NCBI GenBank assembly: GCA_021741585.1
Contig: JAIOXN010000001.1
Coordinates: 983,059 to 1,047,058, forward strand
Length of the DNA stretch: 64,000 nucleotides
Origin: Aquiluna sp.
GTDB lineage: Bacteria > Actinomycetota > Actinomycetes > Actinomycetales > Microbacteriaceae
Direction: 5' to 3'
The number at the start of each line of letters is the position of its first letter. The stretch's first letter is position 1. Under the pieces are notes generated by a model, which saw only the letters and a list, made by a program, of their open reading frames with translations, was not told the DNA's origin and ran no database searches. This document shows positions 32,056 through 36,275 of this stretch, one piece after another. The position numbers and the translations under genes were made by a program.

Positions 32056-33084
32056 CTAATCGCGTGCGCGCTTGGCCGTTGAAGATCGAACCAAAAGCTC
32101 GATCGGCCAAGCGTTCAATTGTTCAAAATTTCTCAGTTGCTTCTCGTCACCAGATTCCAAAATATCCACCAACATGTTGGCGCCCCTGGCGCCTTGCTGG
32201 TTGGTCTTTTGATCAATGGTGGAAAGTCCATAGAACTCGCCCATTGGGTGCCCATCCATACCAATCACGCTGATATCTTGGGGCACTCGAAGTCCTAGGT
32301 CTCTGGCTGCTTGGATTGCGCCGAAGCCCATTTCATCCGATGCACAGTAAATAGCGGTCGGTGCGCTTCTTGGGTCACCAAGCATTTGCTTGGCAGCGTG
32401 ATATCCACCAGCAAGGGTGAAGTCGGTTTCAGCAATCCACTGCGGGTGGAAATCAAGGTTGGCATCCAAAAGCGCTTCTTGGTAGCCAGTTCGGCGAAGG
32501 TATGGCTGGTGGAAGTCCATCTCGGTTGCCGCGGTTCCAGAGATCATTCCAATCTCTGTGTGACCAAGCGAAATTAGGTGCTGGGTGGCTAGCCTTCCAG
32601 CACCTTCATCATCAATAGAGATAGACCTGGCACCTGGAATCGGACCGCCGATTCCAACAATTGGTTTTTGCAGTGCAGTTAGCCTTCGCAACTCATCTTC
32701 GGATAGTTTCACCGCGACGGTTAGAACCCCATCAACTCTTTTTCTAAGAACGAAGTCTTCAAAAACTCTTTTTCTTGCAGCATCGCCACCGGAAAGGTTG
32801 TACAAAGTGACGTCATAGCCACGGGCTGCAAGTGCGTTTACAGCGCCTTCCAGAACAGCAGAGAAGAACCAGCGATCAACAAATGGCATCACGACACCAA
32901 CGTTTTTGGAGCGGCCGGTGGCAAGGGTATATGCCGAGGAAGAGGCCACATAGCCCAGTTCTGCTGCGGCTTTTAGAACTTTCTCACGGGCACGGGCTGA
33001 GACGTGGCTCTTGCCATTTAGCGCGCGCGAAACGGTCGCAGTTGAAACACCGGCGTGCTTAGCAACCTCAATAATTCCGACCAT
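32056..33084 (-). CDS. LacI-family transcriptional regulator
   Basis: A 342-residue repressor. The N-terminal helix-turn-helix ([23 protein letters not shown], then [18 protein letters not shown] hinge) begins at the ATG at 33084; an open frame runs further upstream through the tRNA-Tyr gene but that is not coding. The rest is a periplasmic-binding-protein-like sensor domain ([54 protein letters not shown]) expected to bind a sugar. A palindrome lies 11 bases before the start. Two related operators precede malE and the alpha-glucosidases, so it is the best candidate for the maltose regulator. Confidence 0.93.
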
Positions 33085-33170: not shown

Positions 33171-33252
33171 GGCTAGTTACCCAAGCGGCCAAAGGGATCT
33201 GACTGTAAATCAGCCGGCTCAGCCTTCGGGGGTTCGAATCCCTCACTAGCCA
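33171..33252 (+). tRNA. tRNA-Tyr (GTA)
   Basis: An 82-base tRNA with acceptor GGCTAGT / ACTAGCC, anticodon stem CTGA/TCAG enclosing the loop that carries anticodon GTA (33204-33206 region), a long variable arm (class II) CCGGCTCAGCCTTCGG, and a T-loop TTCGAAT. The discriminator is A; a full CCA end is not encoded (ACA follows the stem). It is transcribed divergently from lacI and followed immediately by an intrinsic terminator. Its 3' half has a degenerate copy at 34291. Confidence 0.96.
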
Positions 33253-33254
33253 CA

Positions 33255-33284
33255 AAACCCCAGCCCTCCACGGCTGGGGTTTTT
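33255..33284 (+). terminator. intrinsic terminator after tRNA-Tyr
   Basis: A GC-rich stem with arms AACCCCAGCC and GGCTGGGGTT around the loop CTCCAC, followed by a run of five thymines. It begins three bases after the tRNA and also lies at the 3' end of the facing acetyltransferase gene. Confidence 0.95.
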
Positions 33285-33301
33285 CACATTTGCGGCAGGT
33301 G

Positions 33302-34213
33302 TCAGCTTGGTTTGGAAAGGTGAACCCAAGCCGCGGTGATCTCAAAACCGACCTTGGCATAAAGGTCTAAGGCACCTGATTCGTTGCCACTGTCGACCGC
33401 CAGCTCCAAGCTGGTGTATCCCCGCGCAATGGCGTAGGCAGCGCCGGCTTTCAGCAAAGCTTCACCATAACCGCGACCTTGAGCAGACTGAGCCACTCCC
33501 AGCCCGATTATGAACCCGCGGTCATCGCTCGAAAACTCATCAGTGTGATGACAGAAGCCAACAGGTTCCCCTTGCACCGATGCAACTAGCACACCGCCTG
33601 GATCGAATGAAGGGTCGCGGGTCACCATTTGGATCCATTCATCGAAAGGCCTTGGGGTGAATCCAAAGTGATTTGCGAACGCATCTTGATGCAGGGAATG
33701 CCAGCTACGAAGCTGTGGCTCGTTGTTGGTGTCAATTGCAGCGATTGAAACATCATCTCTAACTTCAGAAGTTTCAAACCCTGACAAATCCAATCTCATG
33801 ACGCTAAAACGTCTTGTGATGCTAAGACCAAGTTTTGTCCAAGCATCAATTAGCCTCATGTCCTTTGCATTTGCGCCCGGCCAAATTTCCCAGGTGGGGT
33901 TTGTGCTTCGAACCGTTTCGATTATCCAGTCAAGGATTTTCTCCACCTGTATAAACTCCGGAGAACAAAACAACTCAATTTGAAAGCGTTGGCGATGTGA
34001 ATCTGGATTCAAATTCACCGCCGCAACAAGACCTGAGAAGCCATCTTGGGTAAGAAGCATTGCCGCATTCGGCTCAAAATACCCATTAATGAAACTCAAT
34101 GCAGAGTCATTATCAACGCGAGAAGCTTTTGAATCGACGGAAAGATTGTGGGCGTTCATCAAGTCCGCAACGACTTCACAATCAACTTCCTGTGCCTGTC
34201 TGAATTCCAGCAA
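33302..34213 (-). CDS. tandem GNAT acetyltransferase (mycothiol-synthase-like layout)
   Basis: A 303-residue protein with two GNAT-type halves. The C-terminal half (about 165-300) is complete, with PVGFCHHTDEF, the acetyl-CoA loop AQSAQGRGYGEALL and LAVDSGNESGALDLYAKVGF; the N-terminal half (about 1-140) is degenerate. MshD, which acetylates the mycothiol precursor, has this two-domain plan and size, but the key matches are general to GNAT enzymes, so I do not name it. It lies exactly between tRNA-Tyr and the decayed copy of the tRNA-Tyr 3' half and faces the tRNA terminator, which suggests arrival with an insertion. Confidence 0.75.
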   Translation of the reverse strand: MLEFRQAQEVDCEVVADLMNAHNLSVDSKASRVDNDSALSFINGYFEPNAAMLLTQDGFSGLVAAVNLNPDSHRQRFQIELFCSPEFIQVEKILDWIIETVRSTNPTWEIWPGANAKDMRLIDAWTKLGLSITRRFSVMRLDLSGFETSEVRDDVSIAAIDTNNEPQLRSWHSLHQDAFANHFGFTPRPFDEWIQMVTRDPSFDPGGVLVASVQGEPVGFCHHTDEFSSDDRGFIIGLGVAQSAQGRGYGEALLKAGAAYAIARGYTSLELAVDSGNESGALDLYAKVGFEITAAWVHLSKPS

Positions 34214-34249
34214 CCTAAACTCCCAATCATTTAGTTGTTCTGAAGTCTA

Positions 34250-34257
34250 GGGGGGGG
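34250..34257. repeat. run of eight guanines
   Basis: Eight consecutive G bases lie between the divergent acetyltransferase and MFS genes, 36 bases before the acetyltransferase ATG. Such tracts are prone to slipped-strand length change and to sequencing error; here it sits in non-coding sequence beside the tRNA relic. Confidence 0.8.
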
Positions 34258-34290
34258 TTGAACCAAGTTTCCGAAGTCACCAGAGTGAAC

Positions 34291-34365
34291 ATCAGCCGGT
34301 TCAGCCTTCGGGGTGCGAATACTCCACTAGCCACAAAACCCCAGCCCTCCACGGCTCGGGTTTTT
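34291..34365 (+). repeat. degenerate copy of the tRNA-Tyr 3' half plus terminator
   Basis: This stretch repeats 33209-33284 with few changes: the 3' anticodon-stem strand and variable arm (ATCAGCCGG, CAGCCTTCGGGG), the acceptor end ACTAGCC, and then a 24-base perfectly identical block beginning ACAAAACCCC that covers the terminator's left arm and loop. The T-arm is altered and one base shorter (GTGCGAATACT), the terminator stem has one mismatch, and no 5' half, anticodon loop or D-arm exists, so it cannot make a tRNA. Duplication of a tRNA 3' end is the classic mark of site-specific integration. The interval between the two copies is about 1.08 kb and holds one acetyltransferase gene. Confidence 0.9.
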
Positions 34366-34434
34366 CCTTTTTTACACCCTATAAACATCCCCGCTGCGTT
34401 GGTAGTATCTGGTGTCCAACTAGAAGGAAATAAC

Positions 34435-35724
34435 ATGACCGATCCCACAAAGGGCCTAGCTTCAGAGCAACCCGTTTTTTTGGGTTGGAAGAAAAAGGTT
34501 GCGGTCTTTTTGGTGGGCCAAACCATCACAACCTTTGGTTCGATGTTGGTTCAGTATGCGATCATGTGGCATCTGACTCTCACTACAAAGTCTGGTGTTG
34601 TCTTGGCTCTGGCAGCAGTATTTGGGTTTCTACCTCAAGCAGTTGTTTCTGTTTTTGCGGGAGTGTGGGCTGACCGCCTAAACCGAAAAGTGATGATTAT
34701 CATCTCGGACTCCGCGATTGCTCTTGCAACTTTTGGACTGGCGCTGATGATGCTCAGCGGCGTTGACGATCTCTGGTTGATCTTCTTGGTAATGGCAGTT
34801 CGTTCGGCAGGAGCCGGTGTCCAGATGCCAGCCATTTCTGCACTTTTGCCGCAGATTGTCCCAACTGACAAGTTGATGCGAGTCAATGGAATCAATAGCA
34901 GCGTGCAGTCTTCGCTGATGCTGGTTGCTCCCGTTGCAGCTGCCGGGGTTTATGCAAGCTTCTCTCTTGTTGGAATCCTGTTTATTGATGTTGTTACAGC
35001 GGTTATCGGTTTATCTCTGCTTGCAACAGTTGCAGTTCCGACCCTTTCTCGAGTCTCTAACTTGGAAAAGCCGACTTATTTCGCGGATCTCAAAGAAGGG
35101 GTTCAGTACACCTTCACACACGACCTAGTTCGTTGGGTCATGGTGATTTTTGGAATTGTCTTCTTGCTCGTTGTTGCGCCTTCCAACCTTTCGCCACTGA
35201 TGCTGGTTCGCAGCTTTGGATCGGACGTCTGGATGCTCACGGTGCTGGAACTTTCTTTTGGTATCGGCATGGTTTTGGGTGGCGCGCTCATGGCGGTGAT
35301 TGGTTCGAAACTTGATCGCCTTTCCACAATAATTGGGACCTCAATCGCTTTTGGAGTCCTTGCCATCATCATGGGATTCACTACAAACCTGATTTTCTTC
35401 TTTGGCCTGTTCTTCCTAATTGGTATCACGGTTCCTGCATTCTCAACATCTGCGATGACGCTTCTGCAAGAAACCGTTGAACCGGAGCGCCAGGGCCGAG
35501 TATTCGGATTCCTTGGAATCGTGATGGCCCTTGCCATGCCAATTGGCATGGCTGTTTTGGGCCCGCTTGCGGATGTGGTTTCAGTTGAGAGCTTGCTTAT
35601 CGTTACCGGCGCTGCCACCGTGGTGATTGCCGTTTTGGCAGTTTTGCTTCCAGCTGGAAAGCGGGCGATTGCTGCTGCTCACTCTTCTACTGGGCCGGCG
35701 GTCGAGGCAGGAAAAGAACATTAG
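34435..35724 (+). CDS. MFS transporter, drug-efflux type
   Basis: A 429-residue protein with about twelve spans, starting at ATG 34435 after AGAAGGAA. Motif A of MFS exporters is seen as GVWADRLNRKVMI in the loop between spans 2 and 3, and the second half carries GSKLDRLSTIIG at the equivalent place. This resembles the EntS/macrolide-efflux (DHA3-like) group. The substrate is unknown. A longer open frame upstream runs through the tRNA relic and is not coding. The GNAT gene at 35727 follows by two bases, so export and acetylation could jointly give resistance, which is speculation. Confidence 0.88.
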   Translation: MTDPTKGLASEQPVFLGWKKKVAVFLVGQTITTFGSMLVQYAIMWHLTLTTKSGVVLALAAVFGFLPQAVVSVFAGVWADRLNRKVMIIISDSAIALATFGLALMMLSGVDDLWLIFLVMAVRSAGAGVQMPAISALLPQIVPTDKLMRVNGINSSVQSSLMLVAPVAAAGVYASFSLVGILFIDVVTAVIGLSLLATVAVPTLSRVSNLEKPTYFADLKEGVQYTFTHDLVRWVMVIFGIVFLLVVAPSNLSPLMLVRSFGSDVWMLTVLELSFGIGMVLGGALMAVIGSKLDRLSTIIGTSIAFGVLAIIMGFTTNLIFFFGLFFLIGITVPAFSTSAMTLLQETVEPERQGRVFGFLGIVMALAMPIGMAVLGPLADVVSVESLLIVTGAATVVIAVLAVLLPAGKRAIAAAHSSTGPAVEAGKEH

Positions 35725-35726
35725 AG

Positions 35727-36275
35727 ATGGTCGAGATCAGAAGACTCAATCCTGCTGAACTCACTTCCTTTTTGGAGTTCATGGATGGACCAGCGTTTAA
35801 ATCTCAGCCGCAGTGGCAAGGTTGCTATTGCCAGTTTTACCTCAACACAAAAGAAGAGAATGACGACCAAAATTCTGTCGGTTCAGTCAATCGTCAGCGG
35901 GCCTGTGACCGCATAAACGACGGCACCATGCAGGGTTATCTTGCCTATCAGGGCGAGACGGTAATTGGCTGGATGGCTGCAAACAGCTTTAAGAACTTTG
36001 TGGCACTTCCGCCAATGCCTGAGAGTGCGGCTGCAATCATTTGCTTTGTGATTGAACAGGAGCATCAAGGAAAAGGGGTCGCCACAAGACTTCTGGAATT
36101 TGCAATCCAAGACCTGCCCAATCACGGCTTTAGTTCTCTGAATGCCGCACCTCTAAACAGCGAAGAATTTCAGAGTTGGGGTTATCGAGGCCCCAAGAGC
36201 ATGTTTGAAAAAGCCGGCTTTCAGCCCGGGCCAATGGTCGATGATAAGCACATCCTCATGAGTAGAGGCTTATAG
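35727..36275 (+). CDS. GNAT family N-acetyltransferase
   Basis: A 182-residue single-domain GNAT enzyme. The acetyl-CoA loop is EQEHQGKGVATRLLEFA and the C-terminal strand-turn (KSMFEKAGFQ) is normal. An aromatic/cysteine segment WQGCYCQFYLN in the N-terminal third is typical of a subgroup with unknown acceptors. It starts two bases after the MFS stop, and the two probably form an operon. The reaction partner cannot be inferred. Confidence 0.85.
   Translation: MVEIRRLNPAELTSFLEFMDGPAFKSQPQWQGCYCQFYLNTKEENDDQNSVGSVNRQRACDRINDGTMQGYLAYQGETVIGWMAANSFKNFVALPPMPESAAAIICFVIEQEHQGKGVATRLLEFAIQDLPNHGFSSLNAAPLNSEEFQSWGYRGPKSMFEKAGFQPGPMVDDKHILMSRGL

Follow-up and report, generated by a model that had tools for sequence, protein, structure and literature searches.

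A copy of the 3′ half only of a tRNA is the classic signature of an att site, and SLP1 is, in actinobacteria, a tRNA-integrating element found at tRNA-Tyr. For the AICEs, the 3′ ends of actinobacterial tRNAs serve as integrase targets; probable tRNA remnants can act as sites too, and close integrases may use different tRNAs (PMC3218068). A CIME carries att-like repeats on its flanks and no integration or transfer genes, and once such elements are integrated, one of the repeats comprises an end of the target gene; accretion is treated in the same article (PMC5704250). The ssrA islands of Dehalococcoides share one RNA gene as insertion site and show partial repeats, and the 15 that have no integration module are considered by the authors to be perhaps cis-mobilizable elements (PMC3146451). 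In streamlined freshwater Methylophilaceae, an additive flexible island is marked by the recurring last 20 bp of tRNA-Lys (PMC10872708).

The window analyzed here, a stretch of 64,000 nucleotides from Aquiluna sp. (contig JAIOXN010000001.1), contains a tRNA-Tyr with its terminator, a worn second copy of both, and one GNAT acetyltransferase gene between them; the gene with its flanking copies is called the islet below. Like a CIME, the islet has neither integrase nor transfer genes and lies at a site used by the integrases of related elements (seven insertions at tRNA-Tyr in the family). It differs in that it holds one gene only and that the far copy would be a full-length-looking chimeric tRNA with terminator. 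Its direct repeat, putatively att, exceeds the cores of the integrase elements in length and is tRNA-like in its 5′ part. No ICE or IME genes remain in it, and no parental element was found in the viral contigs and phage records searched. As in tyrosine-integrase elements targeted to tRNAs (AICE, IME, or prophage), the target tRNA is intact on one side according to ARAGORN and Rfam, but the interval contains no PF00589 integrase and, compared with AICEs, no replication or transfer gene either. With the ssrA islands, as far as the available text describes them, the islet shares the use of one RNA gene as target, the partial repeats, and the lack of an integration module; those islands differ by their tmRNA target, a serine-type recombinase, and their tandem arrangement. 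Because 7 of the 77 repeat positions beyond the anticodon loop differ between the copies, it is doubtful, on sequence grounds, that the putative att sites could still recombine and allow cis-mobilization. The Methylophilaceae island has in common with the islet a streamlined freshwater host and a repeated tRNA 3′ end, but it concerns tRNA-Lys in a different phylum, with a short repeat and, in the available part of the article, no mention of a terminator. In the literature on islands and integrases of Rhodoluna and Aquiluna, on tRNA-Tyr islands, and on Microbacteriaceae, covered by titles and the beginnings of abstracts with few subscription journals, we did not find this site; nor does the available part of PMC6106888 treat it.

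The two copies of tRNA-Tyr and the gene between them

Table 1. Features of the islet and its direct neighbors (window coordinates).
Feature	Position	Strand	Evidence
LacI-type regulator, left neighbor	32056..33078	-	Pfam, locus comparison
Functional tRNA-Tyr (GTA), left copy	33171..33253	+	ARAGORN, Rfam tRNA 52.5 bits
Terminator hairpin, left copy	33254..33284	+	fold -21.0 kcal/mol, z -6.1
MshD-like GNAT acetyltransferase, single cargo gene	33302..34213	-	ORF, Pfam PF00583, TIGR03448 below cut-off
Diverged tRNA-Tyr 5′ half, right copy	34253..34290	+	21/38, shuffles, tRNA-type comparison, change-point
Better conserved tRNA-Tyr 3′ half, right copy	34291..34334	+	alignment, 39/45 columns
Terminator, right copy	34335..34366	+	31/32, one stem base changed; fold
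MFS transporter, right neighbor	34435..35724	+	Pfam, homolog search, locus maps

The segment 33171–33285 (tRNA-Tyr and terminator) is repeated ~1.08 kb further downstream at 34253–34366 (Table 1). The initial annotation had recognized the repeat as 34291–34365 against 33209–33284, and this direct repeat is present (57 nt at 91%, spacing 1081); compared with the whole genome of the window, the second copy matches the first with E 5.2e-24 and the next match has E 0.001 (12 further matches, all short, from E 0.001 up to the limit of E 10). Its end lies one nucleotide further, at 34366, and its longest identical block, counted in the alignment, is 32 nt and not 24. The right copy receives no tRNA call from ARAGORN and is absent from the Rfam tRNA matches listed up to E 10, so that it is a pseudogene.

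The 5′ half of the tRNA, previously described as absent from the second copy, is present but worn. A change-point search places a step in identity after tRNA position 38, where the anticodon loop ends (0/5,000 permutations), with 21/38 identical positions before and 70/77 after. Kept in register, as many identities of the 5′ half with tRNA-Tyr occur in 5/20,000 shuffles (p 0.0001 in a separate test); in a free local alignment of this half alone the similarity is weaker (189/5,000 shuffles as good). In a comparison with 89 distinct tRNAs (12 types other than tRNA-Tyr), it is closest to tRNA-Tyr, with a mean of 20.9/38 over 37 distinct sequences, tRNA-Ser being the runner-up (mean 18.6, best single one 21). 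Over the 40 nt preceding the tRNA, identity between the copies falls to 13/40. Judged by sequence, the right copy thus looks like a worn but full-length tRNA rather than a 3′ half only. Both terminators fold, the right one (-14.4 kcal/mol) more weakly than the left because of its changed stem base. The left terminator looks symmetric enough for both strands and could serve both tRNA-Tyr and the GNAT gene. The right terminator sits between the divergent starts of the GNAT and MFS genes and does not obviously serve either of them, as expected of a scar.

The GNAT protein has 303 aa, with Pfam PF00583 at 1.5e-16 over residues 172–290. As the initial annotation had it, the acetyltransferase is the only ORF judged real between the copies; an additional mechanical ORF of 86 aa overlaps it. 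The nearest NCBIfam model is MshD, but the protein is not assigned as the mycothiol synthase (TIGR03448 58.6 bits vs. a cut-off of 163.1). In a tree with 18 homologs (a partial match in G002 was left out), it falls in a group of seven (100/97) with six homologs from other genera: four from g82 genomes, one from a g26 genome (with a very long branch), and one from the unassigned L095. The closest two, G263 and L095, share 44% identity with it (91/92); long branches leave the exact placement unsure. Eleven homologs from the genus of the window, only 28–32% identical, form the other side of the tree, so that the proposed tree did set the gene apart from its own genus. Nine of the 21 other genus genomes have no match at E 1e-10; the other 12 have one (28–33% identical, one partial match 40%), and no tRNA gene lies in the surrounding stretches that were fetched. 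The LacI, YajQ, and MFS proteins are mostly 70–88% identical within the genus, far above GNAT. From these comparisons, the gene may have been gained from outside the genus or may have been lost differentially elsewhere; both are possible. No relative was found in phage records and viral contigs. The GC content across the islet (0.44–0.55, lowest at the 5′ part of the GNAT gene, vs. 0.49–0.52 around) is not diagnostic.

Among the neighbors, Pfam names LacI on the left and, on the right, MFS and a second GNAT. Beyond LacI follow what we take to be YajQ-like and ManA-like genes and, beyond the second GNAT, presumably an MMPL-like gene and alpha-glucosidase-like genes. The second GNAT gene (35727–36275, 182 aa), between MFS and MMPL, has no homolog at the same place in the other loci compared.

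The tRNA-Tyr/MFS locus in relatives

Some members of the genus and some g26 genomes have the MFS gene as the right neighbor of tRNA-Tyr. A close MFS homolog (E 1e-30) occurs in 8/22 genus genomes, that of the window counted. In GTDB contigs (80 named loci, the best 80 of 214), tRNA-Tyr accompanies MFS in 10 of the 21 loci checked for tRNAs; in some others, such as L092, L095, L099, L101, and L103, the stretch examined contains no tRNA-Tyr, so that MFS is not always beside it. In several members of the genus (G005, G008, G009, G010, G019, and G020), MMPL comes directly after tRNA-Tyr and the locus lacks MFS, so that MFS may itself have been gained or lost.

After removal of duplicates with the same maps (L089, L102, and L218, equal to L071, L070, and L097), there are 16 loci in which one contig carries both tRNA-Tyr and MFS: eight are empty, seven filled, and one ambiguous. 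The empty sites, with a gap of at most 150 nt (G003, G006, G237, L093, L094, L096, L097, and L100), are the relatives with a single tRNA-terminator directly before MFS for which the initial annotation had proposed to look. Not all relatives, therefore, carry both copies and the gene. The filled loci hold differing genes: the GNAT gene in the window; a small membrane protein in G018; a thioesterase with the same membrane protein in G012; a histidine kinase, a response regulator, an LRR_5 protein, and others in G017 and G001; a TetR regulator and a presumably SMR-like protein in L090; and in L091 a membrane protein of a PMT-like group also present in G001. The cargo thus differs yet is partly shared. 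L098 was not accepted as filled and is counted apart as ambiguous, because its Sbt_1 and TerC genes follow tRNA-Tyr also in G046, and come after tRNA-Tyr and a gene that we take to be ICD in G127 and G188. A Pfam scan of 10 cargo proteins gave no integrase, and a PF00589 search gave none within the intervals of the window's genome, G001, G012, G017, and G018 (L090, L091, and L098 lay outside that search). The site looks like a genuine insertion hotspot where relatives hold different genes.

The species-side tree is based on LacI, YajQ, MFS, and MMPL, with many gaps, and has good support for 18/28 inner branches. It contains 31 of the 37 mapped loci; the duplicate L218, G023, the second contig of G017, and G011, G014, and G016 (the last three lacking all four proteins in the stretch examined) were left out. 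On it, the filled or empty state changes at least five times (17 loci including G188 and G127, without a shuffle control). The class of the tRNA-Tyr terminator, assigned by eye, changes at least six times over the 31 loci; a loop of the CTCCAC type is present in 18 of them, and L073 and L094, apart on the tree, share an unusual terminator with a GCTAAC stem. A recurring set (histidine kinase, response regulator, LRR_5, and small membrane protein, with the PMT-like protein in two loci) is found in changing order beside tRNA-Tyr in L069, L074, L075, and L220 (where only the kinase precedes the contig end). L074 and L075 are contigs C30 and C36 of G017, with tRNA-Tyr near both contig ends and the cargo arranged differently; either a strain mixture or two copies could explain the two tRNA-Tyr contigs.

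Far-end copies also occur in relatives. In L091, a 68-nt repeat (91%) of the tRNA 3′ half and terminator surrounds one gene before MFS, so that the terminator within the repeat, thought unusual in the initial annotation, is not unique to the window. Its sister L090 has other genes at the site, and no repeat was found in it or in G001, which likewise holds cargo. In G012, G018, and G017, which are related and not independent, a second terminator precedes MFS with faint tRNA traces (20/46, 20/46, and 17/46; p 0.002, 0.002, and 0.04). In G188 (g26), two genes, presumably an XRE-like regulator and a membrane protein, separate tRNA-Tyr from a 47-nt repeat at 96%, without integrase. Its sister G127 is empty: the next gene common to both matches from 167 nt after tRNA-Tyr. 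The far terminator of G188 resembles the single terminator of G127, whereas the near one is different and of the CTCCAC-loop type, as in the window. By sequence comparison, the two form a before-and-after pair for an insertion with terminator displacement.

Integrase-bearing insertions at tRNA-Tyr in the family

With the tRNA-Tyr 3′ half and terminator as query (threshold E 1e-6), at least 16 of 398 family genomes have two matches, a lower bound since only two candidates were scored per genome. In 10, including that of the window, the two matches share contig and strand and are no more than 17 kb apart; in the other six, they are distant or on different contigs. A PF00589 tyrosine integrase is inside the interval in seven of the 10 close duplications, the window's genome, G188, and G252 having none. 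These seven insertions make tRNA-Tyr an integrase target in the family. In the eight cases outside g1 and g26 (seven with integrase), the core starts at tRNA positions 29–32, in or beside the anticodon loop, and runs to the tRNA 3′ end; the core boundary of the integrase elements thus nearly matches the step in the window. None of the 10 other duplicated loci has in-register tRNA similarity upstream of its far core (p 0.20 to 0.89), so that a copy of full length is not what such insertions typically leave. The only far site called a tRNA by ARAGORN is that of G161, an integrase-bearing insertion at tRNA-Tyr; the call, at L208:3443-3518 (minus strand), is a tRNA-Phe.

The window's own genome encodes a tyrosine integrase of 379 aa on contig 3 (L233:7625-8761), which starts 117 bp downstream of a tRNA-Lys and shares 51% identity with the integrase at tRNA-Tyr in G118. 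The 15 kb fetched, which extend to the end of the contig, gave no tRNA-Lys repeat, so that we do not connect this integrase with the islet. Viral contigs gave no attP-like match to two exact patterns. Among phage records, 156 match tRNA-Tyr, none over 80% of the query; in the 20 listed, the match is tRNA-Tyr-like in most annotated cases. Two human-gut phage records (H1 and H2) among these matches are unannotated.

Origin of the islet

Most likely, the GNAT gene and its flanking copies are the scar of an old mobile-element insertion. More precisely, we give a probability of about 58% to an integrase-less, att-flanked remnant (CIME-like) of a site-specific insertion at a tRNA-Tyr hotspot. The remnant would span the segment from the anticodon loop of the left tRNA to that of the worn copy. 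The identity step, the single gene unlike those of the genus, and the empty sites in relatives are the observations on which this reading is based. The incoming element would have carried, in its attachment region, a whole tRNA-Tyr and terminator already degenerate in the 5′ half. Upon recombination at the anticodon loop, the left tRNA would have received the 3′ half and terminator of the element, and so have stayed functional; the right end would be a chimera of the old 5′ half of the element and the former 3′ half and terminator of the host, which then started to decay. With the integrase lost, or supplied in trans, an islet of one acetyltransferase would remain. The islet is ordinary in kind; its far copy is unusual in including the terminator and in looking full-length.

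The initial annotation had likewise taken the islet as an insertion remnant, or else as a duplication scar. The insertion at tRNA-Tyr agrees with the empty sites, the position of GNAT outside the genus group, and the integrases of the family, but the far copy is not the 3′-half-only copy assumed there. Nor is a recent integration supported, given the worn copy and a nearest GNAT homolog at 44% identity.

Since the interval holds no integrase and no other mobile gene (ORFs, Pfam, and PF00589 search), we infer the integration, and an origin without integrase is a possible, though less probable, alternative. Either the unit of tRNA-Tyr and terminator would have undergone duplication, or homologous recombination would have brought in a donor fragment containing such a unit; the right copy would then decay while gene conversion keeps its 3′ half and terminator fresh. 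Such an origin accounts directly for the length of a right copy whose 5′ half is most like tRNA-Tyr, and for the missing integrase; cargo varies at the locus also without a repeat (G001 and L090), and genome editing has been reported in Rhodoluna lacicola (PMC11577799). However, the sharp step at the anticodon loop falls where the cores of integrase elements start and is unexpected under uniform decay, and the low similarity upstream of the tRNA also speaks against this alternative. It is improbable that the ancestor of the genus already had the two copies with GNAT and that the other members lost them: the tRNA traces in G012, G018, and G017, three related genomes, suggest that an old right-hand copy may be shared, but nine of the 21 other genus genomes are without a GNAT match, and the matches present are distant and have no tRNA in the fetched stretches. 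Resemblance by chance, or merely of two similar terminators, is hardly credible: the genome does contain other, weak matches to parts of the terminator alone (E 0.008), but the match including the tRNA 3′ half (E 5e-24) contradicts chance.

A broader picture can be drawn, quite speculatively. In small-genome Microbacteriaceae, the exchanged module could be the tRNA 3′ half with terminator and cargo, each insertion giving tRNA-Tyr a new terminator and pushing the old one to the far end; integrase-less islets of one or two genes might then turn over at this tRNA gene, moved in trans by the integrases of other elements or by recombination between the terminator-extended repeats.

From this locus, it seems that a hotspot for insertions is kept at an essential tRNA gene even when genomes are very small and streamlined. 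The locus also suggests that cargo may persist as one gene without mobile machinery, and island searches based on integrases would miss such islets. Finally, the terminator difference in G188 and the terminators within the repeats of the window and L091 suggest that the att region can include the tRNA terminator, in which case the essential tRNA would stay properly ended after insertion.
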